A DNA stretch of 64,000 bases from the IMG/VR virus record IMGVR_UViG_3300035681_000001, positions 1 to 64,000 of that record. The stretch is one strand, 5' to 3'. The stretch is from a virus. The translations under genes and the position numbers were made by a program. The notes under the pieces are model-generated. The model did no database searches and was not told the DNA's origin. It was given only the letters and a program-made list of their open reading frames with translations. Positions 3,034-38,401 of this stretch are shown piece by piece. Within the stretch, counting starts at the first letter, position 1, and every line of letters begins with the position of its first letter.

Positions 3034-3036
3034 TGC

Positions 3037-4169: not shown

Positions 4170-4561
4170 TAGATTACTTTAGCAAAGCCTGCTGTAGCTA
4201 TCGTAAAGGATATTCGGGTTTGATTGATAGTCGGTTGTGTTACCTCAGGCCACACGCGTTGTGAACCTGAATTGTAGACATCTACTGAAGTCGGGTAATA
4301 ACCAAAGTTGTGGTTGATAATCCAAAGTGTACTAGGCGTGCTTTGTGTAAAAGTAAAACCAGTAGCACTAAGTTCGATACGGTTCAGCGAATCGTTATAA
4401 ACAGGCGTAATACCTTTATGACCACCTACAGTAAATAAAGCAGCAGCCGCATCTTGAACTGCTTCTACATCAGTACCTGCAGCACCTTGAGGGCCTGCAG
4501 TAGTAATTTCAACCACTACTTGGGCAGAGTCTACCGTTTCAAGTACTTCTACAGTAGCCAT
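4169..4561 (-). CDS. virion fibre-associated protein (130 aa)
   Basis: I prefer the ATG at 4561 (MATVEVLETVDSAQVV) over the TTG one codon earlier. The ATG overlaps the stop of the upstream gene as ATGA. The C-terminal half has WIINHNFGYYPTSVDVYN, a 'HxLG..P.V.V.' segment typical of phage fibre C-termini, matching the HNLNTYDVTTEVYA stretch in the next gene and implying a shared small beta domain. The N-terminal half has a collagen-like PQGAAGTD triplet. Part of the coupled minus-strand virion operon. Confidence 0.75.
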   Translation of the reverse strand: MATVEVLETVDSAQVVVEITTAGPQGAAGTDVEAVQDAAAALFTVGGHKGITPVYNDSLNRIELSATGFTFTQSTPSTLWIINHNFGYYPTSVDVYNSGSQRVWPEVTQPTINQTRISFTIATAGFAKVI

Positions 4562-4902
4562 CAATCGTCTGTCAGTCCTTCTTTGATAGTGTAGCGCCCT
4601 TTAAGGTAGTAGTACTCTTTACCTGAAGGTTCCACTAACTTTAAGTCATACTTACCACCAGAATACAACGCTGCAGTTTGAGCAGAACTCAAGTACAACG
4701 TAATCTCCCCTATCTCAGCTGAGTCTGTATCTACTTGAAAAGAATCTACCGCATAAGTACCTGCTGCATCCCACAACTGAGCCAATATGTTGTAGCCACC
4801 TAGATTCATAGGCACTTTCAAAGGTCCTGACTTAAAACGCAGCAATAAATCAAAAGAAGACTTTCGGTATATAACCAGGTTGTAAGTACCAGGGTAGATC
4901 AT
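4561..4902 (-). CDS. virion protein, BppU-N / baseplate-like (113 aa)
   Basis: A 113-aa beta-rich protein beginning MIYPGTYNLVIYRKSSFDL. It has the pattern of small phage proteins in which 'xYN..I.rGdtf.l...' is followed by a membrane-free immunoglobulin-like or BppU-N-like fold, ending in a Y-rich strand (KEYYYLKGRYTIKEGLT). It is the first gene of the minus-strand virion operon, reading away from the divergent gene at 5006. Baseplate or neck attachment is plausible from the family resemblance; this is memory-based. Confidence 0.7.
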   Translation of the reverse strand: MIYPGTYNLVIYRKSSFDLLLRFKSGPLKVPMNLGGYNILAQLWDAAGTYAVDSFQVDTDSAEIGEITLYLSSAQTAALYSGGKYDLKLVEPSGKEYYYLKGRYTIKEGLTDD

Positions 4903-4963
4903 TCTAACGCTAGCTTTAGTCAGCTCCCTACAGTCTACTGTTTAATCCAACCCTAATTAAACC

Positions 4964-4985
4964 AAAAAAAAGAAAAGCGCATAGG
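4964..4985 (+). promoter_or_regulatory. candidate copy of the recurring AAAG-x-AAAGCG motif
   Basis: The sequence AAAAAAAAGAAAAGCGCATAGG lies 20 bp before the start at 5006 in the divergent intergenic gap. It resembles the clearer copies at 6757, 24193, 30141, 43331 and 51913, but it is the weakest match. Treated as a possible phage control site. Confidence 0.35.
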
Positions 4986-5005
4986 CCCTGCACACAGCAG
5001 GCTAC

Positions 5006-5596
5006 ATGCTTAAAATGTCACTGACTGTAACTATCCAAGGCGACGTAAACATTATTTCGGGCGTCTCCCGGACTAAAAACACTGTCGCAAAACCTTACAA
5101 CAGTCCAGTTAAGACTAAGAAAACTAAAACAGCTATTGATACACCACCTGTTCAACTAAGTTGGTATCAAAACGCTGTACGTCTTAACCGAGCCGCACGT
5201 AAGAAAACCACACCAGTAACACTACAACGGGCTGTACCTTATACAATCTCAAAACTAGCCCCCACCGGAATTGCTACCACTAAAGAACTATCGGACTCTC
5301 AGGGTAACGTTTTTCCTAGTGTTCAGGCAGCTGCTAACTTTTACGGTTACACACGCCATAAAATCTATAAAGCCCTAGCTTGTAGGGGTGGTAGGTTGTC
5401 ACCTAGTGTAGTAGTTCAGTACACAGGTAACCACATCCCACGTTGGTATTATTACTCCCGCCGGACCCAACGCACTTACGCAAACATCTACTTGGCATCA
5501 GTAGGGGAAAACGTGCCCCAAGATAAAATCCGAGCTGGTATCCGACTGCCTGAAGACCAGCTAAACTGGGAAGTACTAGTACCAACTGTACGATGA
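5006..5596 (+). CDS. hypothetical protein with NUMOD1/HTH-like segment
   Basis: A 196-aa basic protein. The start may be ATG 5006 or the in-frame ATG 5015. Residues ~97-130 read SDSQGNVFPSVQAAANFYGY, then TRHKIYKALA, which resembles NUMOD1-like DNA-binding modules (GxxF.S...AA...G.s...I..al). Such modules are common in phage homing nucleases and in small DNA-binding proteins. No nuclease motif (GIY-YIG, HNH, LAGLIDADG) is visible. It overlaps the next gene by the ATGA junction at 5593. A DNA-binding regulator is the best guess, low certainty. Confidence 0.65.
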   Translation: MLKMSLTVTIQGDVNIISGVSRTKNTVAKPYNSPVKTKKTKTAIDTPPVQLSWYQNAVRLNRAARKKTTPVTLQRAVPYTISKLAPTGIATTKELSDSQGNVFPSVQAAANFYGYTRHKIYKALACRGGRLSPSVVVQYTGNHIPRWYYYSRRTQRTYANIYLASVGENVPQDKIRAGIRLPEDQLNWEVLVPTVR

Positions 5597-6081
5597 TTGA
5601 AGTGTACGCTTTTTCTCAACTCAAAAAAATAAAGGAAAAAGCGTGCACCGAGCATGACTTTACCACCCACGTTTTTGACACACATAACGTTTGTCATGCT
5701 GAGTGGATAAAACCATGCCAACCTAATCAGCACTACCGAGCTATGATTGGTTACGAATTCATAGTCGGTAGTGACCATCAGTTTGAAGTATGGAGATCAC
5801 AACTTTGTAAAATAGTCCACGGTTGTGAGCTTAGAGAATATCTAAGCATTTGTGCGCCTAACAATTATTTCTACGCACTGCTTACATGTTCTCCTGCAGA
5901 AACTTTTCTGGGATCTACTATTTGTAGGTCGCTGTACGAAGACTTCGTAAAGTTCTGGCCTAAGTTAGTTAATCTCCATCAAACAGACATCCAACTAACT
6001 GAGCACTTTATAACTCGTTACGTGCAGTGGCAACACCTTACCTGGATAGCTTCCCAAAGGGGCTGCTTAGAATTTGGTTAA
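5593..6081 (+). CDS. hypothetical protein, coupled to upstream gene
   Basis: A 162-aa protein starting at an ATG that overlaps the upstream stop (ATGATTGA). It is rich in aromatic residues, His and Cys (TEHDFTTHVFDTHNVCHAEW, then two later Cys clusters), so metal binding is possible. No recognised family. The coupling suggests it works with the DNA-binding-like protein just upstream. Confidence 0.65.
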   Translation: MIEVYAFSQLKKIKEKACTEHDFTTHVFDTHNVCHAEWIKPCQPNQHYRAMIGYEFIVGSDHQFEVWRSQLCKIVHGCELREYLSICAPNNYFYALLTCSPAETFLGSTICRSLYEDFVKFWPKLVNLHQTDIQLTEHFITRYVQWQHLTWIASQRGCLEFG

Positions 6082-6164: not shown

Positions 6165-6497
6165 ATGCTCAAAAAACTAATCATTGGTTTAGCGTTGTCT
6201 TTGAGTGTTGCGCAACCAGCTAAAGCCTCAACAGCTGAAGCTAGTGTTTACGACGAATGGTATGATGGCCGACCTACTGCTTCAGGTGAAGCCTTTCGTT
6301 ACCACGGTTTATCAGCAGCACACCCTTGGTTGCGATTCGGTCGATATCGAGTTAGTTACCGAAACCGCTCAGTAACAGTACGGCTTAACGATCGACTCAA
6401 CCTGCCTAGGCTAGACCTGTCTTGTGGAGCAGCCTATCATTTATTTAAGTCTTGCTACACATTAAAAACAGTTACTTATCAGTGGATTGGTCCGTAG
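6165..6497 (+). CDS. secreted RlpA-like double-psi beta-barrel protein, possible endolysin
   Basis: Start is ATG 6165 (a TTG sits directly before it). The first ~21 residues form a signal peptide (MLKKLIIGLALSLSVAQPAKA). The mature part matches the RlpA double-psi beta-barrel pattern: ASVYDEWYDGRPTASGEAF, then GLSAAHPWLRFGRYRV, then VRLNDR and LDLSCGAA. RlpA proteins bind denuded peptidoglycan and some cleave it as lytic transglycosylases. At 110 aa it is essentially the bare domain, without SPOR repeats. The canonical pattern S-x-Y...G..TA.GE.. is intact; the Asp of the NDR segment is present. It converges on a two-helix membrane protein with a 26-bp overlap, so a role in lysis or cell-wall remodelling is likely. 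Confidence 0.8.
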   Translation: MLKKLIIGLALSLSVAQPAKASTAEASVYDEWYDGRPTASGEAFRYHGLSAAHPWLRFGRYRVSYRNRSVTVRLNDRLNLPRLDLSCGAAYHLFKSCYTLKTVTYQWIGP

Positions 6498-6777: not shown

Positions 6778-6827
6778 CAAAGCAGCACCTCCAGTGTTAG
6801 ACTTTGTCTATTCTCTACTCCAGATTT

Positions 6828-7289
6828 ATGTCTGACGCCTACGTTCCTGAAGAAGAAATGGTATCTCCACAAGTAGCGAAGCTAACTCGGTTCGCAGCAC
6901 AACTCCTACAAGCTAGTTACGAAAAAGTAGTCATTGGATTTAAAGGTAGCTCTGGTGAAGCTCAATTTGATGAACCACTGTTTTACCGAGTTGGTATTCC
7001 CGAAACGCAACCTTCTAAAGTAGATGAAGTTGCAGAGCTGATCGAATTTAGTGCTGAAGAAATTAGCAGTATCCTTAGTGATACTGCACAACGAGTACTA
7101 AACAACAGATTCTCGTACTGGTCTGACATGAATGGTGCTTACGGTATTGTTAGTTTCCACCCTGCAGATATGGGAGTCTATGTTAAAATTTATCGTTTGG
7201 TCCCTAAAGGTGATGAAGCAAATGTGACCCGCACCAGCCTCGAAGCTTTGTATCCTAAAGCTCGTCGGGTAGCTACTGCTCAAGACTGA
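6828..7289 (+). CDS. DUF6878-like hypothetical protein
   Basis: I place the start at ATG 6828 (MSDAYVPEEEMV) rather than the TTG at 6804, because homology-like content begins there. The 153-aa acidic protein has a GFKGSSGEAQFDEP segment and later MNGAYGIVSFHPAD followed by VKIYRLV. This resembles DUF6878-type proteins (FxGSGDSG...NDGGYGxxxF pattern). That is a memory-based match, not a search. It sits directly before the candidate ubiquitin-fold gene at 7333 and is followed by a strong terminator at 7311-7329. Function unknown. Confidence 0.75.
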   Translation: MSDAYVPEEEMVSPQVAKLTRFAAQLLQASYEKVVIGFKGSSGEAQFDEPLFYRVGIPETQPSKVDEVAELIEFSAEEISSILSDTAQRVLNNRFSYWSDMNGAYGIVSFHPADMGVYVKIYRLVPKGDEANVTRTSLEALYPKARRVATAQD

Positions 7290-7332: not shown

Positions 7333-7668
7333 ATGCCAAATATCTTTGAGACTCGAAATAACAGAATCGACGAAGAAGATTTCACCGACGAACCGGTACA
7401 GTCTACCTTTGATGGTGAACGACAAGTCACCTTGCAATATGGAACGGAAAAAGTTGCAGTAGACGTTACTAGCCCTAGTTACATGGGTAAAAACCTAGGT
7501 CAGATTGCTGCTATGCGAGCTGACGAACTAGGCTTTAGTCGTGAGGCTACGCGTTTGAACTATCGTCTGGCAGGCAGCTACGTAGAATCTACATTTATCC
7601 CTAAACCAGGCCAAGTCTTTGTGCTCAGTACCAGCGCTGACACTAAAGGCGACCCTAAAGCTCAGTAA
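7333..7668 (+). CDS. candidate ubiquitin-like (beta-grasp) protein
   Basis: A 111-aa protein. After an acidic ~30-residue tail, the core reads RQVTLQYGTEKVAVDV (a beta hairpin), a helix (GQIAAMRADELGFS), YRLAGSYV, and a last strand FIPKPGQVFVLST. This order (two strands, helix, two strands) fits a ubiquitin or ThiS-like beta-grasp fold. The C-terminus is SADTKGDPKAQ, so no exposed Gly-Gly. A protease would have to trim after the Gly to give a conjugatable end. The genome encodes an E1-like and a JAMM protein (24231-28854), which makes this worth testing. Fold call is inference. Confidence 0.65.
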   Translation: MPNIFETRNNRIDEEDFTDEPVQSTFDGERQVTLQYGTEKVAVDVTSPSYMGKNLGQIAAMRADELGFSREATRLNYRLAGSYVESTFIPKPGQVFVLSTSADTKGDPKAQ

Positions 7669-7684
7669 AAACTAAGGGCATACG

Positions 7685-7710
7685 TAGCACTTTACGTGAG
7701 TAAAGTGCTA
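7685..7710. terminator. perfect 11-bp hairpin with GTGA tetraloop before the sigma gene
   Basis: TAGCACTTTAC (7685-7695) and GTAAAGTGCTA (7700-7710) are perfect complements around GTGA, a GNRA-type loop. It sits 17 bp after the stop of the 7333 gene and 25 bp before the ATG at 7735. No proper T-run follows on either strand. It may be a factor-dependent or processing hairpin, or an operator. Confidence 0.5.
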
Positions 7711-7734
7711 TTGTATGTCTATTCGTTTAGTGTT

Positions 7735-9618
7735 ATGTCAGGATTCAGCCGGGACAGTTTTGGAGCCTACCTCAAAGAAATAGGTAGATTTGACCTTTTA
7801 AACAAAAAAGACGAACAAGAACTAGGCGCGTTAGTGCAACAGGGTGAAGTCCTTTTAAAGCTAAAAAAGGAAAACCCTAACCACAGCCTAGAACAGTGGG
7901 CGGTCCAAGCCGGCATGACAGTAAAAGAACTACAGCGTGTCTTAACGCGTGCTAAAAGAGCTAAGGATAAACTCATCAAACACAACCTACGCCTAGTGGT
8001 TTCTATAGCCAAAAGATACACTAATCGTGGGCTGTCTATGGTTGACTTAGTACAAGAAGGTACTATCGGACTCAACCGAGCAGCTGAAAAGTTTGATCCT
8101 ACTAAAGGATTTAAGTTTTCTACTTACTCTTGCGTACCCTTAACCACTGAGATCTTCACCCAACGCGGCTGGTTAAAGTACCACGAACTTGAACCCGGAG
8201 ACCAAACCATTGGATACGACCAAGGTGTCAGTAAGTGGACCCCTATTTTAGGTAGCAAAGTTTACGACACAGCTCCACTAGTAAGTTTTGGAGACTCTAG
8301 GTGGTCTGTTCAATGCACTGACCAACACAAATGGTTAGTCAACGACCAAGGTACTACTAAACTCATACCTTTAAAAGAAATTGATCTTAATAAAAAAGCT
8401 CGTTTAGTAACTTCTGCTCCTTTTGTAGGAGGTAACAGCCCTTTAACTGAAACTGAAGCCGCCGCACTAGCTTGGATTCTTTACGGTATCGTTGACTACG
8501 AAGAACTCAAGTCTGAAAGAATTCAAATCCGATGCCCAGTAGAGTTCACCGAAGAGGTACTAAACCTATTCCAACAGTATTCTTCAGTAGTTTCTGCGCA
8601 GCCAGGTAGTGTTGTAATAAATAACAAAGCACTAGCAAAAATTTGGGAAAAATCAGGCCTAGTAAAACAGGACCTATTAGCTTTAGTAGTAGGCCTAAAA
8701 CCTGAGGCACGCAAAGCGTGGTTTGAAGTTTTTGCTAAAACCCAAACAGTAGCACTTAGATCCAAAGAAAAAGTAGCTGCGCTAGCACTTTGTGCTTTCT
8801 TGGAGGGTTACAGCGAGGTTCAGGTAGAGGGAAGATGGGTCCAATACAAGATTAAAGACTACAACGTCCAAAAAACCTACGCTGAAATCTTTAATCTTCC
8901 ATTTACAGTAGAACCCGCTGGTACTGCTGCAGTTTGGTGCCCTAATACTGAATTAGGTACTTGGACTGCTCGCACTGCTGAAGGTCAAGTGTTCTTGACA
9001 GGTAATACTTGGTGGATACGTCAGGGCATTACACGTGCAGTAGCAGTTCACTCACGAACCATTAGGTTACCAGTACACATATTTGAACGACTAAATAAGA
9101 TCAAAAAGGCTACTAGAGAGCTCTACCAGCAAACAGGCAAACAACCCAGCATATTTCAGATCGCCACTCAATTAAAAGAAAAACCCAAAAAGATTTTACA
9201 ACTAATGGAGTATGCAAAAACAACAAAGTCAATTGACACGTTGTTGAGTGACACCAATGGTACCAGTTGCTTGGCTGATTTCTTAGTAGACGATGTAACC
9301 CTCAGCCCAGAACAGCAAGTAGAAAAAGAACTAAATGCAGCTTACACACAAAAGCTACTGAAAGGTCTCACCGAACAAGAAACTAAGATTATCAAAGACC
9401 GTTATGGTATTGGACTAGAAGAACCTATTCCCCTAAAAGATATTGGTGTAGCGTTGGGCATCACTACTGAAAGAGTAAGACAAATAGAACGTCGAGCTTT
9501 GGAAAAACTAAGAGAAACTCATCTATTCCATGAAAAGCACCGCCCGAAACTCAAAAGCTCTAAGCAAATTAAAACGCAAAGTAAACCACTAGAACCTAAA
9601 GCTGAACTAGACTCGTAA
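7735..9618 (+). CDS. sigma-70 family RNA polymerase sigma factor, intein-containing
   Basis: Start taken at ATG 7735 (MSGFSRDSFGAYLKEIG). The GTG 39 bp upstream lies inside a perfect hairpin. The 627-aa precursor holds region 1.2 (~1-40), region 2 (HNLRLVVSIAKRYTNRGLSM, then DLVQEGTIGL and FKFSTYS), a 292-aa intein, then the rest of region 2 (TWWIRQGITRAV), region 3 and region 4 with its HTH (ALGITTERVRQIERRALEKL). After splicing the factor is about 335 aa and matches cyanobacterial group-2 RpoD-like sigma factors. Region 1.1 is missing. It should redirect host RNA polymerase to phage promoters. A Lys-rich tail follows region 4. Confidence 0.95.
   Translation: MSGFSRDSFGAYLKEIGRFDLLNKKDEQELGALVQQGEVLLKLKKENPNHSLEQWAVQAGMTVKELQRVLTRAKRAKDKLIKHNLRLVVSIAKRYTNRGLSMVDLVQEGTIGLNRAAEKFDPTKGFKFSTYSCVPLTTEIFTQRGWLKYHELEPGDQTIGYDQGVSKWTPILGSKVYDTAPLVSFGDSRWSVQCTDQHKWLVNDQGTTKLIPLKEIDLNKKARLVTSAPFVGGNSPLTETEAAALAWILYGIVDYEELKSERIQIRCPVEFTEEVLNLFQQYSSVVSAQPGSVVINNKALAKIWEKSGLVKQDLLALVVGLKPEARKAWFEVFAKTQTVALRSKEKVAALALCAFLEGYSEVQVEGRWVQYKIKDYNVQKTYAEIFNLPFTVEPAGTAAVWCPNTELGTWTARTAEGQVFLTGNTWWIRQGITRAVAVHSRTIRLPVHIFERLNKIKKATRELYQQTGKQPSIFQIATQLKEKPKKILQLMEYAKTTKSIDTLLSDTNGTSCLADFLVDDVTLSPEQQVEKELNAAYTQKLLKGLTEQETKIIKDRYGIGLEEPIPLKDIGVALGITTERVRQIERRALEKLRETHLFHEKHRPKLKSSKQIKTQSKPLEPKAELDS
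8131..9006 (+). other. intein within the sigma factor (region 2)
   Basis: Residues 133-424 of the precursor. It starts with Cys (block A CVPLTTEIFTQRGWLKYHEL), has block B as CTDQHKWLV (the TxxH pair), and ends FLTGN followed by Thr. Thus it is a class 1 intein with Cys+1, a terminal Asn and Thr as the +1 extein residue. Gly replaces the usual penultimate His. Removal joins FSTYS to TWWIRQ, a perfect sigma region 2.3-2.4. The ~180-residue centre has remnants of LAGLIDADG helices (AALAWILYGIVDYEE, LALCAFLEGYSEV) that lack the proper Gly-Asp endings, so the homing endonuclease looks decayed. Confidence 0.93.
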
Positions 9619-23806: not shown

Positions 23807-24193
23807 ATGGACGGTGCAGAATGCCTAACTCTTTCAGACTACGTCAACAAGAAAAAGGTCAGGCAACTACATCGACAAGCTATTTTCAGAGCTTTTGACC
23901 ATAAGTGCGCTTATTGTGGCAGTCCAGCTCAAAGCTTAGATCACGTTAAACCACGTCACAAAGGAGGTCAAAACCTTAGTTCTAACTTAGTACCTGCTTG
24001 TTTAGAGTGTAATCAAACCAAAGGTAGCTCTGACTTATGGGACTTCTACCACAAAGGTCAGGCTTTTTATTCAGCTAGTAGAGCTGAATTTTTAAAACAG
24101 TGGGTTTCAGGTGAAATCTTAGCGTTAAGGGCACTAAGTGTTGAAGAACTCGGCAAAGACAACGTGCACATATTCTTAGTAGGTTTCAACTAA
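23807..24193 (+). CDS. HNH endonuclease
   Basis: A 128-aa protein with a complete HNH module: CAYCGSPAQSLDHVKPRHKG, then GGQNLSSNLVPACLECNQTKG. Both zinc CxxC pairs, the catalytic His of LDHV and the Asn of the N/L-N-L-V-P strand are present. Free-standing HNH nucleases in phages act as homing enzymes or assist terminase cutting. It is the first plus-strand gene after the adhesin block, just before the intron-containing JAB gene. The end of the gene abuts a copy of the recurring motif (24193). Confidence 0.88.
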   Translation: MDGAECLTLSDYVNKKKVRQLHRQAIFRAFDHKCAYCGSPAQSLDHVKPRHKGGQNLSSNLVPACLECNQTKGSSDLWDFYHKGQAFYSASRAEFLKQWVSGEILALRALSVEELGKDNVHIFLVGFN

Positions 24194-24230: not shown

Positions 24231-26977
24231 ATGTCTGAAGGTGCTGAAGCGCCAACCTTAGAACCTTTTGTAAGAGGTAAAAAGGGCTGCCTTAAACTCG
24301 TTACTTCTCCATATTGGGGTAGTTGGTATAAACAAGTAGACGATCCTAAAGGTAAAGACGTAGACGCAAAAGAACTGCTAGAGCAATTTTGGATTAAAGA
24401 GTCGTTTGATAAAGTACCACTACAGCAGCTACGTAGGGTGGTTACCTTTTATAGACGTTATGTGTCTAACGTAGCAGCCAACTCGACAGTAGATACTAAT
24501 GAAGTACAAGTTTTGCTGCTGCGATCAGAAACTGATATTACAGCATGGAAAATCCTAGTTCCTAAACAAATCATTACACCCGGAACAGTCGAAGCAGTAA
24601 CTCATCCGTCTTGTGATTTAGAAACTGGTGAAGATCACTTGGTGTTTCCGCCTGAAGGGTGGGCTCATGCTGGTAGTAGCCACTCCCATAACACTATGGG
24701 TAAAAGATCCTGAAGTCTGAGTAGAATAAGGCTAATTTGTAGTCTTACTTTGCTTACTTACGCAAATCCCCGCGACGTACACGTGCGCCAAAAAGTGGTT
24801 GAACTTTTTAATAAAGGGTTTACACCACAAGAGATTCAACAAGAACTAGGTCTCCGCTACTGGCAACCTGTTTATAACGTGCTTAAAAAAGCTGGAATCT
24901 ACGAAAAGAGATCTACTAGGTACCATCGTAAGTATTTTTTTAACGAAAACTACTTCGATAATATCAATACAGAAGACAAAGCTTATTTCTTTGGTTTTCT
25001 TGCAGCAGATGGATGTATTGATTCTGATGCACAAAGGGTAAAAATAGCCCTTCAAGAAAAGGACTCAGATATCTTGTATAAGATGGTTTCTTACTTAAAC
25101 GCAAACTTTGAGCCAAAGTTTGTAAAACACCATTCTTATAATCAAGTTCATCTGTGTTTAAACTCAAAGGTTTTTAGGCACGCTCTTATACAAAAAGGTA
25201 TGAAACCCAGAAAATCTTTAACCATGAGTGCAGAGTTAACCGACTCAATCCCTGAACACCTAATAAGGCACTTTCTTAGAGGGTACTGTGATGGAGACGG
25301 TAATATATTCCTAGGAAAAAGATATAAGTCTGGGGTTAAATTCTCTGTATCAGTCATAGGGACTAAAGAATTTCTTAAATCGTCTTTTCTTAAGCACTGT
25401 TCTAGTAACTCTCCTCTCTCAAAGTATAACTCTTGTGAGATGTGGTGCTGGAAAACAGCCAAGATAGATCACGTATTTGAGTTCCTTAAATACATCTATC
25501 AAGATGCAACAGTCTACTTAGATCGTAAGTACAAATACGTAGGGGATTACGTAACTTCAGAATGTGCCCATATAAAATCAGGTGAATTGCTGGAAATCTT
25601 CCTGCCTAAGGCAAAAGACAATCAGCAGCCAAGTCTACTTGCTCAAAGTAAGTAGAAAGGTTCAGAGACTATCCCGAAAGGGAGTACGCTCAAGCGAGCG
25701 GAAGCGCCTGAATACCTATAGTTTAACTATAGGTATAAGATATAGTCCCATCCCGCATGACCGCGTTAGAGTCATAATACCGAAAGGGCGGATGTCTGTG
25801 TAGCGAACAGACACGTAAGTAATTGGCATTCTTTTCAGGTAAAGACGACCGAGGCGAACTAACCGTACCGGGCTTGCACTTTGTAATTGGTAGGATTACT
25901 ACTTCTAGCTTTGAGATTAAAGCTTCAATCGTAATGAACCGTATGCGATTTCTAGTACCTCCTGATTGGGTACTAGAAATCGGAGAAATTCCTTATAAAG
26001 TACAAGATTCAATGGTAGGAGTCTTTACTGACTCTATAGCCGTACCCTACGCTGAAAAAGTAGAAACTTACGTTAAGCGAGCTAACGAAGCTGTACCTAA
26101 ACGTACCCCTTTACCTGGTAGTTATGGACCTAGGTGGACTCGTAATAATACAAACCATGCTTATAGCTGGACACCTAAAGGTAAAAGTCCAAACGCACTG
26201 GGAGACTTTTCAGACCTACTAGGAGACGTAAACGAAATTGGTTTGTACTCTAATAAAACCGTACAAATAAACGCGCGGTCTAAACCACTAAGTATGGTTG
26301 TCAAACAGCTTAATTTGCTGTTGGACGGACTTAAGTATCAACACTCTGCAGTAGTCTTTGAAGCTCTGGTAAATAAAGGATTCATCAGTGAGCAAGCTGC
26401 ACTGATAGCTGCAGGTGAAGCTACAGAAGTCGCACAGCAAGCTGAAGTGTGGAGTTTTAAAAAGCCTAGCGGACTAGCAGACCTAGTTGATAACTTCAAT
26501 GAATCAGAAACTGAACCCCCACAAGATCAGTTAGACGCTACCTTTAGTCTTTTAGCTTCGTTGCTAGGTGACTTATACGATGGTTACAACGAATCAGACG
26601 CAGTGTACGGTTTACTCTACACACTAACTCTTATTGATAAGAAAACAGTACAGCTGTATACAATTGAGTATAAAAAAGCACTTAACTGGGGAGTTTGTCT
26701 AGCTAAGCGCCTACCCAGTACGTTTGACGGTGATTGGACAAGCGTAGAAAAACTAGCTGTGGTGCTGAAATCTTTAATAAAAGATGACCACTACCGTAAA
26801 ATAGTTTACGGAATTCTGTTGAACGTAGGGTACCTAGAAGCCGAAAACCTACCAGTTGACAGCACCACGGCTGAACTTTGGCGGCGTAGCGCTGCTGAAT
26901 TTACCGATACCAATACTGATACTGACTTAGGTTTGGCAGCCACTCACTACGAACCTGATTGGACTGATCGTATTTAA
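24231..26977 (+). CDS. JAB/JAMM (PRTRC-A-like) isopeptidase, gene split by a group I intron
   Basis: Exon 1 is 24231-24701 (157 codons) and exon 2 is 25826-26977, giving a 540-aa product after splicing. Exon 1 ends HSHNTMG and exon 2 starts AFFSGKDD. Joined, they make the JAMM signature H-x-H-x7-S-x-x-D (H151, H153, S161, D164), so the metalloprotease site exists only in the spliced message. The rest of exon 1 and the first ~60 residues of exon 2 form the JAB fold; the C-terminal ~300 residues are helical and unassigned. It is followed with no gap by an E2/PRTRC-B-like gene and a ThiF-like gene. It likely removes or matures a ubiquitin-like protein. Splice sites are inferred from frame, motif, T at the exon end and G at the intron end. 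Confidence 0.88.
24702..25825 (+). mobile_element. group I intron in the JAB gene
   Basis: About 1124 bp. Core landmarks: GAATTGCTGGAAATC (25583-25597, P3/P4 side), AATCAGCAGCCAAG (25620-25633, P4-P6 region), TTCAGAGACTA (about 25661-25671) and AAGATATAGTCC (25737-25748), the last two forming P7. A perfect stem ATACCTATAGTT/AACTATAGGTAT (25712-25735) fits P8. The preceding exon ends in T and the intron ends in G, as group I introns require. It carries a homing nuclease gene. Exact ends could shift slightly. Confidence 0.88.
24750..25655 (+). CDS. LAGLIDADG homing endonuclease (intron-encoded)
   Basis: A 301-aa protein. An N-terminal HTH (~residues 10-55, GFTPQEIQQELGLRYWQPVY) precedes two LAGLIDADG helices: AYFFGFLAADGCIDSD at ~80 and LIRHFLRGYCDGDGNIF at ~180. 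Both retain the acidic residue, so it is probably active and cuts intronless alleles at the JAMM site. The last ~24 codons run through the intron core (GELLEIF..., KDNQQPSLL), so the same bases serve the protein and the ribozyme. Confidence 0.88.
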   Translation: MLTYANPRDVHVRQKVVELFNKGFTPQEIQQELGLRYWQPVYNVLKKAGIYEKRSTRYHRKYFFNENYFDNINTEDKAYFFGFLAADGCIDSDAQRVKIALQEKDSDILYKMVSYLNANFEPKFVKHHSYNQVHLCLNSKVFRHALIQKGMKPRKSLTMSAELTDSIPEHLIRHFLRGYCDGDGNIFLGKRYKSGVKFSVSVIGTKEFLKSSFLKHCSSNSPLSKYNSCEMWCWKTAKIDHVFEFLKYIYQDATVYLDRKYKYVGDYVTSECAHIKSGELLEIFLPKAKDNQQPSLLAQSK

Positions 26978-28066
26978 ATGAGCACTTTCACTCTAGCTAC
27001 AGAGCAACCTACACCTACCAGAAAGACTATTGCCAGAGGTCGCCATAAATTTATTGCTTTCCCTGGCGAAACCCAAAAGGCACTGTTTTCATACACACTT
27101 GGTGGTTCATCACACCAATGCTTAGACGTTAATGGTAGTACTAGAAGAATACCACAAAATTATCATTCTGTAAGAATTTTCACTATCACAGCACCTAGAA
27201 CTGCTCTGGTACCTTTACCAGAATCTGGAGATCAAAAGAAATGGTTAAATATTTTTACTGAAAGAACTTGCAAAAACTGCTCGCACTTAGCGCAACCAGC
27301 TCTAGCTGTACAGTCTGCTTTTCTAGCAGACCGCAACATAATAAACCTTAAAATAGACGCACTAGAACGAGTAGTAGCTAGGTATCAAACTGGAACTTGT
27401 AAAGGTGTACAAGCACATCAAACAGGTATTTGTCCTGCCTCACACAACATAGCTGAGGGCTTGTCCTCATTGGACACTGCAGTTATGCAAGTTCCTGCTT
27501 TGTGTCTAATGTCTACTTATACTAGTCAAACAGACCTACTAGCCTTTAGCGAAAGGGAGTACAACCTTTTTGCTTATCGAGAAACTGATCAAAAAGTAGG
27601 CCCTTACTGCCCAGCTAATGTGCACTCATCAGGAAAAATCTGTTGGGGTAGAGAAATGCAAAACAGCAACGTTAAACCTCGCACACCTAAAGAAGCGTTG
27701 TCTATGTACTGGGGGTCTGGTTTTAACCAAGACTTAGCGTCTCAACGGGGCTCAAGTCTAAAAACTACTTTAGAAAACTATCGACAAACTGAAACTAGTT
27801 ACGGAAAACTACAAAATTATTTGCACGAGCATAAATACGGTACCAGCCAACCGTGTGTCGGCATCTATTTAAGCTCTTACAGAAACTTGTTGCAAAAAGT
27901 TCCTGCTGAGCACCACATAAAATTAGGAGAAGAGACAATGGTACTAGCTTGGGTCTTATACGCTGAACCAGAAAGGTACGTACTAGATTGCAACGGCTTT
28001 CTGGTAGAAATGAGTAAATTAAATGGCTCCTCCACAGTAAACATCCATAACCTTACTGAATCCTGA
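26978..28066 (+). CDS. PRTRC-B / E2-like protein of the ubiquitin-like cassette
   Basis: A 362-aa Cys-rich protein starting directly after the JAB stop. The segment YCPANVHSSGKICWG (~residues 210-224), followed ~30 residues on by MYWGSGFNQD, matches the 'PNV..dG.iCwG...fw.S.Fn' pattern of PRTRC system protein B and the prokaryotic E2-like family (from memory). C211 and C222 are candidate active-site Cys; C98, C101, C141 and C152 could bind metal. Probable role: receive a ubiquitin-like protein from the ThiF-like partner and pass it on. Its stop overlaps the ThiF start as TGATG. Family call is by pattern only. Confidence 0.72.
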   Translation: MSTFTLATEQPTPTRKTIARGRHKFIAFPGETQKALFSYTLGGSSHQCLDVNGSTRRIPQNYHSVRIFTITAPRTALVPLPESGDQKKWLNIFTERTCKNCSHLAQPALAVQSAFLADRNIINLKIDALERVVARYQTGTCKGVQAHQTGICPASHNIAEGLSSLDTAVMQVPALCLMSTYTSQTDLLAFSEREYNLFAYRETDQKVGPYCPANVHSSGKICWGREMQNSNVKPRTPKEALSMYWGSGFNQDLASQRGSSLKTTLENYRQTETSYGKLQNYLHEHKYGTSQPCVGIYLSSYRNLLQKVPAEHHIKLGEETMVLAWVLYAEPERYVLDCNGFLVEMSKLNGSSTVNIHNLTES

Positions 28067-28854
28067 TGAAATTCGACCAAGTTCACCTAGTAGGTCTGGG
28101 TGGTACCGGTTCGTACTTAGCTAAACCTCTTACTAGGTTGCTTAAATACCACAACCAAGGTACGACTAACTTACACTTCTGGGATAAAGACCTAGTAGAA
28201 CCACACAACCTGATCCGCCAAGACTTTGGTGCTGAAGCTGTAGACCAAAATAAAGCTGAAATCATGGCCTCAGAACTAAAGTCTATCAACCCTTACATCC
28301 GAGTACACACTGGTTGGTTTGTACCTGATACCCTAAACGAATGGTTGACTCAACAGCCAGCTAACAATTTGTTAATAGTACTGGCTGTTGATAACGACGC
28401 CACGCGTAATGCAATCATCGTAGAACTAGATGCAATGCCCAACCAAGACTTTGTGCTAGTACTGCCAGGTAATGGCTATGACACCGGCAATACTTATTGG
28501 TACGGTAGGCAAGGTAGCGAAACAGCTCCTGTACACCCGTTCGACGTAGCGGATAACTGGGCTTTTCCGCAAGACGGTTTGCCTGGAGATTGTGCAGAAG
28601 AAGCTAAGTCTACACCTCAACTTATAACCAGTAACTTTTCCCAAGCACTATGTTCGTTGGAGATCGTACTAGGGCTATTGAACGACACACCTATGCCATT
28701 CAAAATGGATTACTCGGGTCCTAATTTCAGTATTCGAGCAGAAGGTAAACCTACGTACTTTCCTAGCTTGATTAAACCTGAACCCGTGGTAGTGGCGGCT
28801 CCTGCAGCCCCAGTAGTAGAGCCCGAACTCCCAGTAGTTGACTTGTTCTGTTAA
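28066..28854 (+). CDS. ThiF/E1-like activating enzyme
   Basis: A 262-aa protein with a Rossmann fold typical of ThiF/MoeB/E1: GLGGTGS at residues 10-16, FWDKDLVEPHNLIRQDF at 38-54 and Q61-x-K63. These supply the adenylation residues (D42, N48, R51, Q52, K63). Candidate thiol residues are C176 (in DCAEEA) and C196. A Pro/Val/Ala-rich tail ends in FC. It is closest in layout to the PRTRC ThiF protein: short, single domain, no rhodanese or MoeZ part. Expected reaction: adenylate the C-terminus of a ubiquitin-like protein. It is coupled to the upstream E2-like gene and converges on virion genes with 1 bp between stops. Confidence 0.9.
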   Translation: MKFDQVHLVGLGGTGSYLAKPLTRLLKYHNQGTTNLHFWDKDLVEPHNLIRQDFGAEAVDQNKAEIMASELKSINPYIRVHTGWFVPDTLNEWLTQQPANNLLIVLAVDNDATRNAIIVELDAMPNQDFVLVLPGNGYDTGNTYWYGRQGSETAPVHPFDVADNWAFPQDGLPGDCAEEAKSTPQLITSNFSQALCSLEIVLGLLNDTPMPFKMDYSGPNFSIRAEGKPTYFPSLIKPEPVVVAAPAAPVVEPELPVVDLFC

Positions 28855-33027: not shown

Positions 33028-34380
33028 GTGGACTTTCTGTATTGTAACGACCTCGGTACTTATCGTACTGGGGTTTTATCTTTGGGGTGTGAGCCTTTAG
33101 CGTTAGACACAGAAACTATGGTCCGACCTGAATATGAAGGTCGAGGCGGCAGTGCTCTGGACCCTCATACCGGTAGGATATCTCTAGTTATAGTCCAGCA
33201 CTTAAATCAAATACCGATCATCTTTGATCTGGTTTGTTTAGAAGCTCTAGGTTATGACCCAGAACCGCTAGTTAAAGCTTTAGACACAGCCGAGTACTTA
33301 CTAGGAGCCAACATCAAGTTTGATGCCAAACAACTCCGAGGAACTTTAGGTTACACACCTAAGAAACTTAGAGATGTGATGCTGCTAGGTAAACTAATCA
33401 GCAACGCTACTGGATCTAAAGCTGGTAAAGCAGTAGGGCACTCGCTAGGAGACCTAACGCGTGAATACCTAAACGTCCACTTGGCAGGTAAAGGCACTTT
33501 ACAAAAGTCTACCTGGGCTACCGGAGTAGAATCTCGTACGTTAACTAACGAGTGGTGGTTAGAAAAACTAACTTACGCAGCCAACGACGTAGCTTACCTA
33601 TTTCCCTTACAAGCTGTAATGCTACCGATACTACAAACACCACTACCCGATTCTCCACTTACTCAAACAGGTAACACTGGAGCATGGGGGTTTGGTATGA
33701 CCATAGCAGTACAACGAGAGTTTAGGTTGTTACCAGTAACAGCCGAGATGGAATACAACGGGCTGCCTGTTTCTAAAGACTTTATGACTGCTTTTCAAGA
33801 AGCAGTCAAAGACTCTCTGGATTCTTTAGGGGTATATCTGTCCATAGAACTAAAACTAGACACTCCTCAAAAAGACTGGTCCGGGCGGTTAGTGCCTTCT
33901 TTAAAAGCCTTAAAAGTACTGCGCTCAGCTAGTGGGTTACTAGACCTCATACGTAAAGCTCTAGACTTCCAGAAAATAGACAACGTTCAAGCAGCCGTGC
34001 TGCAACGTATGCTGTCCATCCTAGACGCACTGGCTGCCGCTAGCACTGCAGACGATAGCACACCCACTACAGGTGAGCTGTTTATTAACGAAGACGAAGA
34101 AACCTTATACTCAGAATTAACCGAACTAGAACACTGTAAGTTAATAGCAGCCTCTCCTATAGTCCAGGCTATTTTGGACTTTAAACGGCTGACTAAACAA
34201 GATGGAATGGATTTGCGTAAATACATAAACCCAGCTACTGGTAGGATCCATCCTAGTTACAGTCAAATAGGTGCTGCTACCGGACGGTTTGCTAGTTCCG
34301 GGCCTAATGCCCAACAAATCTCCAACAAAACCAAGGTATTACTAGATGGGTTCCAAACCCTTGGATTGGCCTCTACGTAA
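33028..34380 (+). CDS. polA: DNA polymerase A, N-terminal piece (3'-5' exonuclease and start of polymerase domain)
   Basis: GTG start; 450 aa as read. Exonuclease motifs are intact: Exo I LALDTET (D27, E29), Exo II ANIKFDAKQL and Exo III YAANDVAYL. The polymerase part runs through the thumb to PATGRIHPSYSQIGAATGRF and SGPNAQQIS, the conserved stretch before motif A. After codon ~433 (near 34326) similarity to PolA ends and the frame closes at 34380. The next polymerase part resumes in another frame at about 34657. So the enzyme is either made as two chains or joined after removal of about 330 bp. Confidence 0.88.
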   Translation: MDFLYCNDLGTYRTGVLSLGCEPLALDTETMVRPEYEGRGGSALDPHTGRISLVIVQHLNQIPIIFDLVCLEALGYDPEPLVKALDTAEYLLGANIKFDAKQLRGTLGYTPKKLRDVMLLGKLISNATGSKAGKAVGHSLGDLTREYLNVHLAGKGTLQKSTWATGVESRTLTNEWWLEKLTYAANDVAYLFPLQAVMLPILQTPLPDSPLTQTGNTGAWGFGMTIAVQREFRLLPVTAEMEYNGLPVSKDFMTAFQEAVKDSLDSLGVYLSIELKLDTPQKDWSGRLVPSLKALKVLRSASGLLDLIRKALDFQKIDNVQAAVLQRMLSILDALAAASTADDSTPTTGELFINEDEETLYSELTELEHCKLIAASPIVQAILDFKRLTKQDGMDLRKYINPATGRIHPSYSQIGAATGRFASSGPNAQQISNKTKVLLDGFQTLGLAST

Positions 34381-34702
34381 AAGGTCAATAGGCTTTGAAA
34401 ACAACCTCATATTAAAAGAGCTGCTACTGCTAGGGGCCTTTAAAGAAAAAAACGCTATAGCTTGGCCCTCAGACACTGGCTTGACAGAATCAGAAACTAA
34501 AACACTACTAGAGTCCTTACGTAAGAAGAACCTTATTCGCGGCCGAGCACCTTATAAGCTAACCACTAAAGGAAAGAAAATAGTAGCCGATCACTACCAC
34601 CGTTTGTTAGCTGAGTATGAATCTAGTAGAACCCAACTACCAGTTTCTGGCAACACCCAGACAATCATTCGTAACGAAGGGGAAAGTTTGGATTTCAGTT
34701 GA
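34346..34702 (+). CDS. winged-helix-like ORF in the insert between the polymerase pieces
   Basis: An open frame of 118 codons overlapping the end of the N-terminal polymerase frame and the start of the C-terminal one. Residues ~18-75 look like a MarR-like winged helix: KELLLLGAFKEKNAIAWPSD, then TESETKTLLESLRKKNLIRG and YKLTTKGKKIVADHYH. The last ~25 codons lie over polymerase sequence and are probably not functional there. It could be a small regulator carried by the insert, or part of a recoding element. Start uncertain. Confidence 0.5.
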   Translation: MGSKPLDWPLRKRSIGFENNLILKELLLLGAFKEKNAIAWPSDTGLTESETKTLLESLRKKNLIRGRAPYKLTTKGKKIVADHYHRLLAEYESSRTQLPVSGNTQTIIRNEGESLDFS

Positions 34703-36476
34703 CTTTTCAGGTCAAGAGCTAATGGTAGCTACAGCCTGGTCAAAAGATCCGGCTATGGAGCGAGCTTTTACAGAACCTGAAGTCTTAACCTTACCTGATG
34801 GTACTACTTACAAAAACCCATACGCTGACCTGCACACACTAACGGCAGTTAAGTGCTGTGCCCCAGCATTATTCCAGGGAGTCCCAGAACACGAGTGGGT
34901 AAGTAACGCTAAAGAAAACGGATCTAGACACAACGGTAAAACTACAAACTTTGGGATTATCTTTGATCAAACAGCAGAATCTCTATCACTACTCAACCAC
35001 GTTAAACTGACTGAAACTGAGCAATGGGTAAAAGGCCACAAGCAAACCTACGCAGGTTATCACCACTGGGCTGAAGAATACGGAGCTATAGCTGCCGCTC
35101 GCGGCTTTGCTGTTAGCCCGGTGTCTAAAGCTATTCGCTGGGTAGATGAAGAAAACTCCAAAGGTGGTGGGGAATCGCCAGCTAGAGCTGCGGTTAATTA
35201 TGCCATCCAAGGGGAATCTAGTATGATAACCAAGGAATGTTTGATCAGGTTATATGAAACTTTGCCACCAGAAATAAGAATACTAAATACAGTCCACGAT
35301 AGATTTTGTCGTGGTTAAATAACTTTAATTGCTGGAAACTCCTTAGAGCTTAACTCACCACAACGTAGTCGGCAACGACAAGCGTGACGGTTCAAAAAGA
35401 GTTATGATTGGGTCTAGTACTTTGTCTGACTAGCAGTGTAAGACTGAAAGCTCCACTTGTATTGGTAACAGCTAATGGGACAGGGACCAATCCACTCAAG
35501 AAAAGCAGGAATGCTCTTTTTAGAGAGGAATATTTTACCTTTACCGTCAGTTCGTGAGCGAAAACCCAACGACTTGAGTTGAATCACAAGTCGTTGTCGT
35601 TCAGCCAATGTAAAAGAATGGGCTGCAAATGCAATTTGTCTTAGGTATCCGTTGCAGGAGTCAAAGCCTCCATCACCGATGTACCACATAGATGCAGCTA
35701 AAGGGGTTAGTTGTAAATCCCGAGGAAGAATCTTTTTCTTCTCCGGATACCAGCGATGCCAAAAAGGTATGAGAAAATCCGATCTCAATGAGTCTACTTG
35801 GTAGGTTACACCTGTTGAGTAACCATTAGGTTTAGACTGGAGGTTAGGAGAAAAAGGAACGGATTTGCCTAGCTGGGCTCTAACCCAAATAGAAAAGTCC
35901 TTTTCTTTACAGTTATAACCAAATCTCGGGCGCCCTAAAGGTGTTTTCGAGTAGTTGGTTAAATAACCATCTCCTAACAGCAGACCATCCAGTAAGCTTC
36001 TCATTAAGCTAGCAACATTTGCTTAAGTTTAGCACTATCGGTTATACAGAAGAAAAATCCTGATGGACAATCAGCAGCCAAGGGTCTAGGCTGTAACCAG
36101 CTTAGATCAAGGTTCATCGGCTATCGCGGAAGCGAGTAGGACTCAAGAGAGTTCGAAACGGGTTACTAGTGAAAACTAGAAGATATAGTCAGAACTTTTG
36201 CGAAAGCAAAAGAAGCCTTACGGAATCGGTAAGGCTGCAACACTAACGGAGATCAATTTTGAGGCGCCAGGCCGATGTTGGCTAGACTTAGATCGCTCTA
36301 AATTTGATAATAACTTACTAATAAACCCTGTGTTTGCTTACGATGAACAAGCTCTAGCTACAGCAGAACGCATTACGCAATTAATGGTAAACACTGAAAC
36401 CGAGTTCTTTCAGGCTGCCGGCTCACCTATTCAAGGTCGAGCCGAATACGCTATAGCCCCTTATTGGAAACACTAG
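34617..36476 (+). CDS. polA: DNA polymerase A, C-terminal piece, split by a group I intron
   Basis: Exon 1 is 34617-35300 (228 codons) and exon 2 is 36249-36476, giving about 303 aa. PolA similarity starts near PRQSFVTKGKVW. Motif A is ISVDFSGQELM; motif B is RHNGKTTNFGIIF (Arg, Lys and NFG in place); motif C is TVHD^EINFE, split between D and E by the intron. Joined to the N-terminal piece it gives a complete family A polymerase (exo plus pol, no 5' nuclease). Start codon of this chain is uncertain, because the upstream join is not understood. Confidence 0.85.
35301..36248 (+). mobile_element. group I intron in DNA polymerase motif C
   Basis: About 948 bp. The 5' part has AATTGCTGGAAACTC (35328-35342 region, P3/P4). 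The 3' part has AATCAGCAGCCAAG (36069-36082) and AAGATATAGTCAG (36180-36192), which match the JAB-gene intron nearly base for base. Exon 1 ends in T, the intron ends in G, and splicing restores TVHDEINF. The endonuclease gene inside lies on the opposite strand. Confidence 0.9.
35414..36004 (-). CDS. LAGLIDADG homing endonuclease encoded antisense within the intron
   Basis: A 196-aa protein starting at ATG 36004. Two LAGLIDADG helices are visible: SLLDGLLLGDGYL at residues 3-15 and LAASMWYIGDGGFD at ~103-116, both with Gly-Asp. The layout (LLDGLLLGDG, then MWYxGDG, then LK.LGF.) matches the LAGLIDADG type used by chloroplast and phage introns. It is read against the direction of the polymerase gene, so it cannot be translated from the intron-bearing transcript and must have its own promoter. 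Confidence 0.88.
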   Translation of the reverse strand: MRSLLDGLLLGDGYLTNYSKTPLGRPRFGYNCKEKDFSIWVRAQLGKSVPFSPNLQSKPNGYSTGVTYQVDSLRSDFLIPFWHRWYPEKKKILPRDLQLTPLAASMWYIGDGGFDSCNGYLRQIAFAAHSFTLAERQRLVIQLKSLGFRSRTDGKGKIFLSKKSIPAFLEWIGPCPISCYQYKWSFQSYTASQTKY

Positions 36477-36494
36477 TACTCACGCACCTAAGCA

Positions 36495-36830
36495 ATGGTA
36501 GAAATCCAATTCAAAGCTCTAACCACCGTAACAGTGGCCATTACGGAACCTGTTTACTCTAAAATAAGCAGTGTACGCTCTAAATATAACAAACTAGAAT
36601 CGTTCCGTAGGTGGGATGGTGAGCAGTTTTTAATAATAGAAAAGAAAACCACTTCTAAAGGAGTGGTGTCTGTAACCCTTACAAAAGAGATTTATAAAGC
36701 CTCACTAATAAAAAGCGAAGAAGCCTCAGAGCAAATTCTAGGTAAAGGTAAGTACGCACTCACTAAAGAAGAATTCTATACAGAACTAAAGGCAGCCATC
36801 GGACCTTTCTTAGCTACTATGGAAGGCTAA
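36495..36830 (+). CDS. hypothetical protein (111 aa)
   Basis: A 111-aa basic protein, 18 bp after the polymerase exon 2 stop. The pattern is beta-rich N-terminal half and helical C-terminal half; no known motif. Its stop overlaps the next start as TAATG. Part of the replication operon. Confidence 0.65.
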   Translation: MVEIQFKALTTVTVAITEPVYSKISSVRSKYNKLESFRRWDGEQFLIIEKKTTSKGVVSVTLTKEIYKASLIKSEEASEQILGKGKYALTKEEFYTELKAAIGPFLATMEG

Positions 36831-37030
36831 TGCCGCTACACCTGGTAACCTATGAACTTACCGATACTACAATAAGTTATTATCCGAAGACTAAATTAGT
36901 GTTAGTTGATTGTGCTGACGAAGAAGAAGCGCTGGCCTTACTAGAAACCAAACACCCTATTACTTATTGTGGCGTTGAAATTCTAGAGTTCGAGCCAGTA
37001 TTAAGTAACCAAAACACAAAGAAAACCTAA
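36830..37030 (+). CDS. hypothetical protein (66 aa)
   Basis: A 66-aa acidic protein coupled to the preceding gene by TAATG. It has a short helix of acidic residues (DCADEEEALALLETK) between strands, a small alpha/beta fold. No family recognised. Confidence 0.55.
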   Translation: MPLHLVTYELTDTTISYYPKTKLVLVDCADEEEALALLETKHPITYCGVEILEFEPVLSNQNTKKT

Positions 37031-37066
37031 AAATATATAAAACCAAAATCCAAAAAACCAAAACCA

Positions 37067-38401
37067 ATGAGTGCCTCACGAATTGATTTAGCTCAAGTTA
37101 CAGACTTAACTGAAGCTACTAGGTGGGTGTATGACCCCGACAAAGAACTATCTGTAGGTGCTGCTTTAAGGCATGTACACCTAGAGCAAGTTAGTAATGA
37201 AAAAGTAGCCCTGACGGCTTACGCTACAGGTCAAGCTTGGTTGCGCCGGCTAGCACCAGCTAGTGGTGTAATAGGTACCCAGTACCTCTATGATGGAGAA
37301 GACTTGATCTCCCGAGTAGCAAACCAACAGATCTGGCGTAAGTCTTCTTTACGTATAAGTCAGAACCGTAACGGATCACTAAAACTAGAATGCGTACAAC
37401 GTATTGAAGCTGACGGAACTGTAGTTTCTGCAGGAAATATCAACCTCAATACGTACTCAGGTGACTTAGATGATTTCTCAATACCCGACGCCAGTGATTA
37501 CGTATTAGTAGCTCACACTGATTTAGGGTACGACTTTAAGAGTCTAGCTAGGGTAGCTGGAGAATATTCCGCTCTAAGGGGAGATTCAGCTAACCGAGCA
37601 GTATGGTTGTGCCTAGAACAAAACCTACGTCTAAGCGTAACCGAGCGGGCTTCTGACCGAGGTATTGGGCTGTTAACTCACACCTTACCTACTACTGTCG
37701 TACACCCTATACGTCTAGGCTTTCAAGGCCGGCACCTTAATAAAATAGCAGACGTAGTAGAAGAAAGCCCAGTACTTACTATCCACGTTGATTCTTTAGA
37801 CAACCCTACACGAGTAAGGTTTAGTGGTTTTGGTGGGTGGGTAGACCTACCGGTAGTAGCCGAATACCACTGTAGAGCTCTTTCTAGGGGAGCTATGGGT
37901 GTGTTTCTAGGTGAAAACTACACACGTACTGAATCTGAATCCGTAATTTTCAACGTAGAAGACCTACAAGACGGCATAGCTATCCAAGCTCCTAAGAAAG
38001 GAGCCACTCGCAATGACGTAGTATTAGAACTACAAGACCAAAAACTGTTGGTATCAAAGCGTTCTGACATACGTAGGTCTGAGCTTTCTACCATCCCGTT
38101 ACATGAAGCTAGCACCGTAGAGTGGACAGACGTAGTAGTAGATCACACTTACTTAACAGATGGTGTAACTGCTTTAGATTCTTTCTTAAAAGCAGCTGAC
38201 AAAAGAGCACGGTTACCTGAACTAACTGACGAACCTACTACACCTATAAACGTAAGGTTGGTCTCAGTAACACAATCAGTGTCTAGTAGTAACGTGCATT
38301 TGTTGCTAATCCGACCCGCTATCGACCAAGACTACGAGTGTCAAGTAGCACTTATAGTAAACACCAAAGCCCAAACTAATGACTACAACGAAGCGGACTA
38401 A
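37067..38401 (+). CDS. possible sliding clamp (DnaN/beta-clamp-like), 444 aa
   Basis: A 444-aa protein with no signal peptide, alternating strand and helix segments (VLVAHTDLGYDFKSLARVAG; LGFQGRHLNKIADVVEESPV; FSGFGGWVDLPVVAEYH), which fits the three-domain DnaN fold: 'fl.al......v.i' followed by 'P.....Y'. It lies between the polymerase and clamp-loader genes, the right context for a clamp. The assignment is fold-level and uncertain; other replisome proteins are possible. Its stop overlaps the next gene by ~20 bp. Confidence 0.55.
   Translation: MSASRIDLAQVTDLTEATRWVYDPDKELSVGAALRHVHLEQVSNEKVALTAYATGQAWLRRLAPASGVIGTQYLYDGEDLISRVANQQIWRKSSLRISQNRNGSLKLECVQRIEADGTVVSAGNINLNTYSGDLDDFSIPDASDYVLVAHTDLGYDFKSLARVAGEYSALRGDSANRAVWLCLEQNLRLSVTERASDRGIGLLTHTLPTTVVHPIRLGFQGRHLNKIADVVEESPVLTIHVDSLDNPTRVRFSGFGGWVDLPVVAEYHCRALSRGAMGVFLGENYTRTESESVIFNVEDLQDGIAIQAPKKGATRNDVVLELQDQKLLVSKRSDIRRSELSTIPLHEASTVEWTDVVVDHTYLTDGVTALDSFLKAADKRARLPELTDEPTTPINVRLVSVTQSVSSSNVHLLLIRPAIDQDYECQVALIVNTKAQTNDYNEAD

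Follow-up and report, generated by a model that had tools for sequence, protein, structure and literature searches.

A predicted ubiquitin-like conjugation cassette with an intron-split JAB peptidase gene in a contractile-tailed phage

The window analysed here, bases 1–64,000 of the IMG/VR record IMGVR_UViG_3300035681_000001 (189,763 bases in total), encodes a ubiquitin-like protein (Ubl), a JAB/JAMM peptidase, an E2-like protein and a ThiF/E1-like adenylating enzyme. All four components are thus found in one genome and, judged by their conserved residues, they probably form a phage-encoded system for Ubl activation, conjugation and removal. The three enzyme genes lie head to tail on the plus strand at 24231–28854, with the JAB gene ending at 26977 and followed by the E2 (26978–28066) and E1 (28066–28854) genes, and the Ubl gene is located on the same strand at 7333–7668. 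Three coupled genes of these types, read as a phage-borne ubiquitin-pathway-like cassette, had been described in a first-pass annotation; all three were confirmed, and the reading gained support from the co-occurrence of the genes, the conserved E2 signature and the intact ThiF pocket. The four-gene set recurs in dozens of viral contigs and is therefore considered a conserved viral system. As a major head protein, a head maturation protease and a tail sheath are encoded elsewhere on the record, its carrier is a contractile-tailed phage, and its host is likely a cyanobacterium, since the best phage matches of a polymerase-like gene are cyanophages (Microcystis phages, 27% identity).

Bacterial Ubl conjugation is so far known mainly from host defence (Bil, CBASS) or from uncharacterised plasmid and chromosomal operons. 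A full and conserved set in many large phages would mean that bacterial viruses may write and erase ubiquitin-like tags themselves.

Components of the putative cassette

The E2-like protein (362 amino acids, aa) carries a four-cysteine module followed by a UBC signature, N214-x(4)-G219-x-I-C222-W-G, which is the E2/PRTRC-B-like pattern previously noted for the middle gene product and which is upheld here by both family matching and conservation. The match to Pfam Prok-E2_D is below the cut-off for the window protein (E 8.4e-4) and above it for the E2 of a related 125-kb contig, IMGVR_UViG_3300007177_000055 (hereafter the relative contig; E 9.1e-6). Asn214 and Cys222 are invariant in 52 of 52 sequences, and the Asn-x7-Cys spacing is that of eukaryotic UBC enzymes. 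The Cys is kept whereas the classical His is absent, no His being found before P-A-N, and all of 20 aligned E2s have Asn250 and Asp252. The four cysteines N-terminal to the E2 core (C98, C101, C141 and C152) are shared by 14 of 15 E2s of class A, the group of loci with the gene order Ubl-JAB-E2-E1 that includes the window, and by none of five others; the module is predicted to bind zinc and may help choose targets.

The E1-like protein (262 aa) is a single-domain ThiF (Pfam E 2.9e-14) with the motif G10xGGTG and the residues D40, N48, R51, K63, D109 and C176. Its adenylation residues had been described as complete, and the pocket is indeed intact: Gly10, Gly12, Asp40, Asn48, Arg51, Lys63, Asp109 and Cys176 do not vary among the 54 sequences compared, which include one plasmid PRTRC set, and the JAB residues Glu91, His151, His153, Ser161 and Asp164 are likewise identical in all 54. 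By motif, Arg51, Lys63 and Asp109 can be equated with Arg73, Lys86 and Asp130 of MoeB, which are known adenylation residues (PMC12355090).

The product of 7333–7668 (111 aa) consists of an acidic N-terminal extension, a beta-grasp core at residues ~30–100 and a C-terminus reading STSADTKG with a five-residue tail; a Ubl-type C-terminus is found in 1 of the 406 open reading frames (ORFs) of this genome. Its AlphaFold model shows the beta-grasp order with a core pLDDT mostly of 74–88, and its top PDB structure matches are dominated by ubiquitin, SUMO, NEDD8 and bacterial Ubls (target-normalised TM-scores mostly ~0.55–0.65). Searching this genome with Prok_Ub (PF14454) returned nothing, and the Ubl assignment therefore rests on fold and context. 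A homologue is encoded just upstream of E2-JAB-E2-E1 in the 216-kb viral contig L030 (BLASTP E 3e-17, single comparison), and with a three-sequence Ubl profile 15 of the 18 contigs searched proved to encode a Ubl, usually immediately before JAB; in total, homologues directly precede the enzymes in 19 other viral contigs (L030 and 18 other class-A loci). The protein had been put forward earlier as a Ubl candidate, a proposal borne out by the model, the fold matches and these homologues. Among 15 Ubls of both classes (see below for class B), invariance is limited to Lys-Gly and a single internal Gly, and Lys-Gly is followed by 0–2 residues in class-A Ubls, by five in the window and by 11 in the relative contig. 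A DUF6878 hint (E 0.03) for the gene preceding the Ubl gene (6804–7289) was dropped, the gene having no homologue in the other loci.

Distribution, gene order and relation to known systems

A four-sequence JAB profile scan of IMG/VR found 48 contigs, some of them near-identical to each other, with E1 adjacent to JAB in all 48, E2 in 45 and a Ubl within the fetched locus in 40. Judging from the E2 count in these independently found contigs and from the invariant catalytic residues, co-retention of the cassette genes exceeds chance. Not all 48 need be phages, as a few group with plasmids or bacterial genomes; terminase (PF03237) was above the cut-off in 13 of 20 records tested and was not found above it in the window's own record, which has other head and tail genes. 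Scans of viral contigs with ThiF, E2, Ubl or JAB exon 1 found a single relative, and tblastn gave no match for E2 among phages and plasmids or for the Ubl among phages. With tblastn, none of three different cassette proteins matched more than 8 of 50,697 phage records, in agreement with the earlier remark that such a set is unusual in a tailed phage, but the 48 IMG/VR contigs show that it is less exceptional than supposed. A search of a genome collection gave 20 relatives, mostly clostridial; in mostly clostridial genomes (L093–L109) a related JAB-ThiF pair was observed, in many with an E2 gene ~2–4 kb downstream, an arrangement that is perhaps an integrative element. In the gut contig L027 (MT835544.1), filed as phage, a possibly Ubl-like ORF, a JAMM-motif ORF, a ThiF and a reverse-transcriptase-like ORF lie in a row at 2140–5630.

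The relative contig has an identical gene order and near-complete synteny with the window's record over most of the shared part. Two gene orders prevail overall, Ubl-JAB-E2-E1 (class A) and Ubl-x-E2-JAB-E1 (class B), the latter including Salmonella phage Arash and Vibrio phages D69, D181 and D148. In the E1 tree, one clade (SH-aLRT 96) unites all 18 class-A rows and a second (99) contains 16 class-B rows; plasmid PRTRC and clostridial rows fall outside both, and several branches are long. The window E1 sits in a well-supported all-phage clade. Several class-B cassettes neighbour the terminase large subunit gene in divergent orientation. Most Ubls of class B have GTKG at their C-terminus, and some are arranged in tandem (2, 3 or 5 copies), so that an endopeptidase is needed where they are joined at GTKG. 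Two such genes resemble polyubiquitin precursors with repeats ending in GTKG, one of three copies in phage D69 (L025:394–1185) and one with five matched Ubl domains (L053:2979–4088).

An all-against-all comparison of the ORFs in 16 class-A loci gave only four same-strand families common to essentially all of them, JAB, E2 and E1 (16 loci each) and Ubl (15), with the next same-strand family reaching 8; the Ubl exception is the relative contig, where the gene lies ~8 kb away. A survey of related phages for co-occurrence had been set beforehand as a test, which the cassette passed in these loci. No further family was conserved beside class-A cassettes, and a genome-wide search for PRTRC E, F and ParB was not made. 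This co-occurrence also bears on a sulfur-carrier pathway, in which E1 and JAB would make a thiocarboxylate of a ThiS/MoaD-like Ubl for a metabolite or tRNA and the middle protein would not be a conjugating enzyme. Single members of the Ubl set do match ThiS and Ub-Mut7C weakly, and the single-domain E1 has ThiF/MoeB enzymes as its best NCBIfam matches (all below cut-off). Such a role is nevertheless improbable, because E1 is nearly always accompanied by an E2-like gene whose Asn and Cys are invariant (the same 45 of 48 contigs); moreover, no biosynthetic gene is conserved beside the cassette in the 16 class-A loci.

As a conjugation system, the cassette can be compared with the type-6d operons of Iyer, Burroughs and Aravind (2006), which contain the same enzyme set in bacteria, the phages in that work having only the lambda-type I/K pair (PMC1779556). 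Shared with type-6d/PRTRC systems are a small Ubl with a conserved C-terminal Gly, a JAB, a stand-alone E1 and a stand-alone Prok-E2_D E2 with a conserved Cys, as well as common JAMM, E1 and E2 residues. Of the 6d hallmarks, a Ubl with C-terminal Lys-Gly (here with a short tail after it), JAB and E1 together, and an E2 Cys lacking the classical His are all present. By contrast, the absolutely conserved downstream His of 6d E2s is replaced by Asn250/Asp252, no conserved alpha-helical partner stands beside the cassette (16 class-A loci), and the phage version has the class-A four-Cys module in E2, a long C-terminal extension of JAB and a tailed-phage carrier. The PRTRC models (TIGR03735/03736/03737) were not reached, with best scores of 18.7 against 101.8 bits for A, 17.9 against 131.45 for B and 40 against 144.75 for ThiF. 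Because these cut-offs failed and two 6d features are lacking, the set was filed as a variant related to PRTRC/type-6d operons and not as PRTRC itself.

Cassettes on cyanobacterial plasmids (Chondrocystis AP018282, Nostoc CP026684) likewise combine a Ubl ending in G[TK]KG, Prok-E2_D, JAB and ThiF in one run, but have the order E2-JAB-ThiF, a Ubl fused to a C-terminal extension, an E1 in another branch of the tree and no four-Cys module. Phages Arash, D69, D181 and D148 also carry E2, JAB and E1, with one or more Ubls ending in GTKG in D69-type phages, and differ in the order E2-JAB-E1, the separate E1 clade and the lack of the four-Cys module; in D69 the Ubls are in tandem and the E1 is annotated only as a fragment. 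Their cassette genes are unannotated or called hypothetical or structural, and in the Arash record the E2 and E1 genes (L028:1519–4539) are annotated as 'structural protein'. Two jumbo-phage overviews (PMC7824862 and PMC13282480) do not mention such systems, and no report of a phage E1-E2-JAB-Ubl set was found by term searches of the open-access PMC literature, which is weak evidence as preprints and most subscription papers fall outside it.

Bil and type II CBASS (Cap2/Cap3) share Ubl-type activation and E2 and JAB chemistry in prokaryotes, but are bacterial anti-phage defence operons, Cap2 being a fused E1-E2 acting on a CD-NTase, whereas the phage cassette consists of separate genes. Host systems of the Bil type attach a Ubl to the phage central tail fibre (PMC12948488, PMC11364771), which could make the cassette a counter-defence in which JAB strips host Ubl tags (Bil, CBASS) and the E1, E2 and Ubl act as decoys or competitors. 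This appears slightly less probable even than a sulfur carrier: JAB alone would suffice, yet the complete set is conserved with intact active sites, and among the PADLOC Bil/Cap2/Cap3 component models there was no match for JAB, E2 or Ubl and the E1 gave partial matches to E1-E2 proteins only. The E1 of the relative gave one weak match to BilD in PADLOC (E 0.0026).

The JAB gene and its group I intron

The JAB gene noted in the first-pass annotation is present, but split by a group I intron rather than contained in one ORF; the intron, like the E2 cysteine module and the breadth of the distribution, had gone unnoticed there. The ORF at 24231–24713 (160 aa) contains the JAMM Glu and HxH, and the Ser and Asp sit in a separate stretch starting at 25826. 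The intron (24702–25825, plus strand, 1,124 nt) interrupts the motif as HSHNTMG|AFFSGKD, between the two metal-binding His and the Ser/Asp. Joining exon 1 (24231–24701; residues 1–157 with catalytic Glu91, His151 and His153) to exon 2 (25826–26977; residues 158–540 with catalytic Ser161 and Asp164 and the C-terminal extension) gives an in-frame product of 540 aa, which is collinear with the uninterrupted 541-aa gene of the relative contig. An N-terminal domain is present; the JAB of type-6d operons has an alpha+beta domain at its N-terminus, with conserved Arg and Trp. In the relative contig, the JAB falls short of the cut-off in its matches to Prok-JAB (E 0.0028) and PRTRC_A (E 0.001).

The insert, catalytic core included, matches RF00028 of Rfam over its full length (83.1 bits against a gathering value of 50, E 1.9e-20). 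An intron guide at 25566–25572 (GCCCAUA) and the exon end UAUGGGU form a P1 of 7 bp, which has the expected U.G wobble at the splice site, and the last intron base is G25825. Within the intron, a LAGLIDADG homing endonuclease is encoded at 24750–25655 on the plus strand (Pfam LAGLIDADG_3, E 1.5e-8; PHROG 4645 endonuclease, E 3.1e-44); the ORF overlaps the intron core at its 3' end and, given this P1 pairing, would lie mostly in the P1 loop. We infer that the intron splices in vivo. The unspliced frame stops three codons past the insertion, and a JAB translated from unspliced RNA would lack both Ser and Asp. This would fit a gene broken by the insertion in a cassette decaying in this phage, which is very improbable in view of the full-length group I score, the 7-bp P1, the terminal G, the in-frame junction, an exon 2 still open over 383 codons and an intact endonuclease ORF. 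A broken pseudogene was judged unlikely, and an intein rejected, also on the RF00028 score, the insert moreover not being one open frame.

Sitting in the part of the JAB gene that is conserved best, the intron has the look of a selfish passenger. In contig L048, a related JAB gene contains another and different group I intron (6193–6477; RF00028, E 2.4e-15), one that holds no ORF. As read from the sequence, its insertion point immediately follows HSH, 12 bases upstream of the window's within the same motif; the JAMM motif is thus a repeated intron target. Two independent introns at this site amount to mobile introns exploiting the invariant residues of a viral metalloprotease.

Proposed pathway, possible targets and neighbouring features

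In the conjugation pathway proposed, JAB would trim the Ubl precursor after the conserved Lys-Gly, and the Gly thereby exposed at the C-terminus would be adenylated by E1 with ATP; the Ubl, perhaps held on Cys176 of E1, would then pass to Cys222 of E2. As no E3 is evident (a genome-wide search for an E3, proteasome-like or unfoldase partner was not made), the E2 may rely on its own cysteine module for targeting; it would attach the Ubl to target proteins, from which JAB could also remove it.

Phage lambda is not known to have an E1 or an E2. A tail-assembly module like lambda I (TAPI)/K, in which the Ubl would only be cleaved by JAB and never conjugated, is scarcely credible here. Phage Ubl and JAB pairs near tail genes do exist (PMC1779556), and tail-fibre genes surround this cassette too, but the accompanying E1 and E2 have their catalytic residues intact.

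Several points weigh against a conjugation system. The Ubl gene is 17 kb from the enzymes in the window, and its product ends in Lys-Gly rather than Gly-Gly, matches no Pfam family and has a best Foldseek E-value of only 1.8e-3. For E2, the AlphaFold model has a pLDDT of 37 and a profile search gave no sequence match in the PDB, which leaves Pfam and the motif as support for the E2 fold. In addition, no E3 is evident, and every chemical step is deduced from conserved residues.

With respect to targets, virion or morphogenesis proteins, either the phage's own or those of competing phages, are tentatively our first choice, based on the tail-fibre genes surrounding the cassette, the class-B location beside terminase and the analogy with Bil. 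A role in host takeover is ranked somewhat behind these and is rather unlikely. The most elaborate version, a complete phage Ubl pathway that regulates virion assembly or disables rivals, with the E2 zinc module as E3-like targeting and deconjugation dependent on splicing, is rather unlikely as a whole. As cultured phages (Arash, D69, D181 and D148) carry related versions, the old question of what PRTRC/6d-type Ubl systems modify becomes testable, and a stand-alone E2 with a cysteine module may reveal how targets are chosen without an E3.

Further mobile-element features were observed nearby. A free-standing HNH endonuclease gene (23807–24193) lies just upstream of JAB and is also kept in the relative contig; weaker homologues also precede the cassettes of L048 and L052. 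The polymerase-like gene region at 33028–38401 is spread over several ORFs in both this phage and the relative, which suggests further introns or inteins; it gave no Rfam intron match. Directly after the Ubl gene, a sigma-70-type factor (7696–9618) contains an intein-like insert between FSTYS|CVPLTTEIF and VFLTGN|TWWIRQG, and the relative contig has one too.

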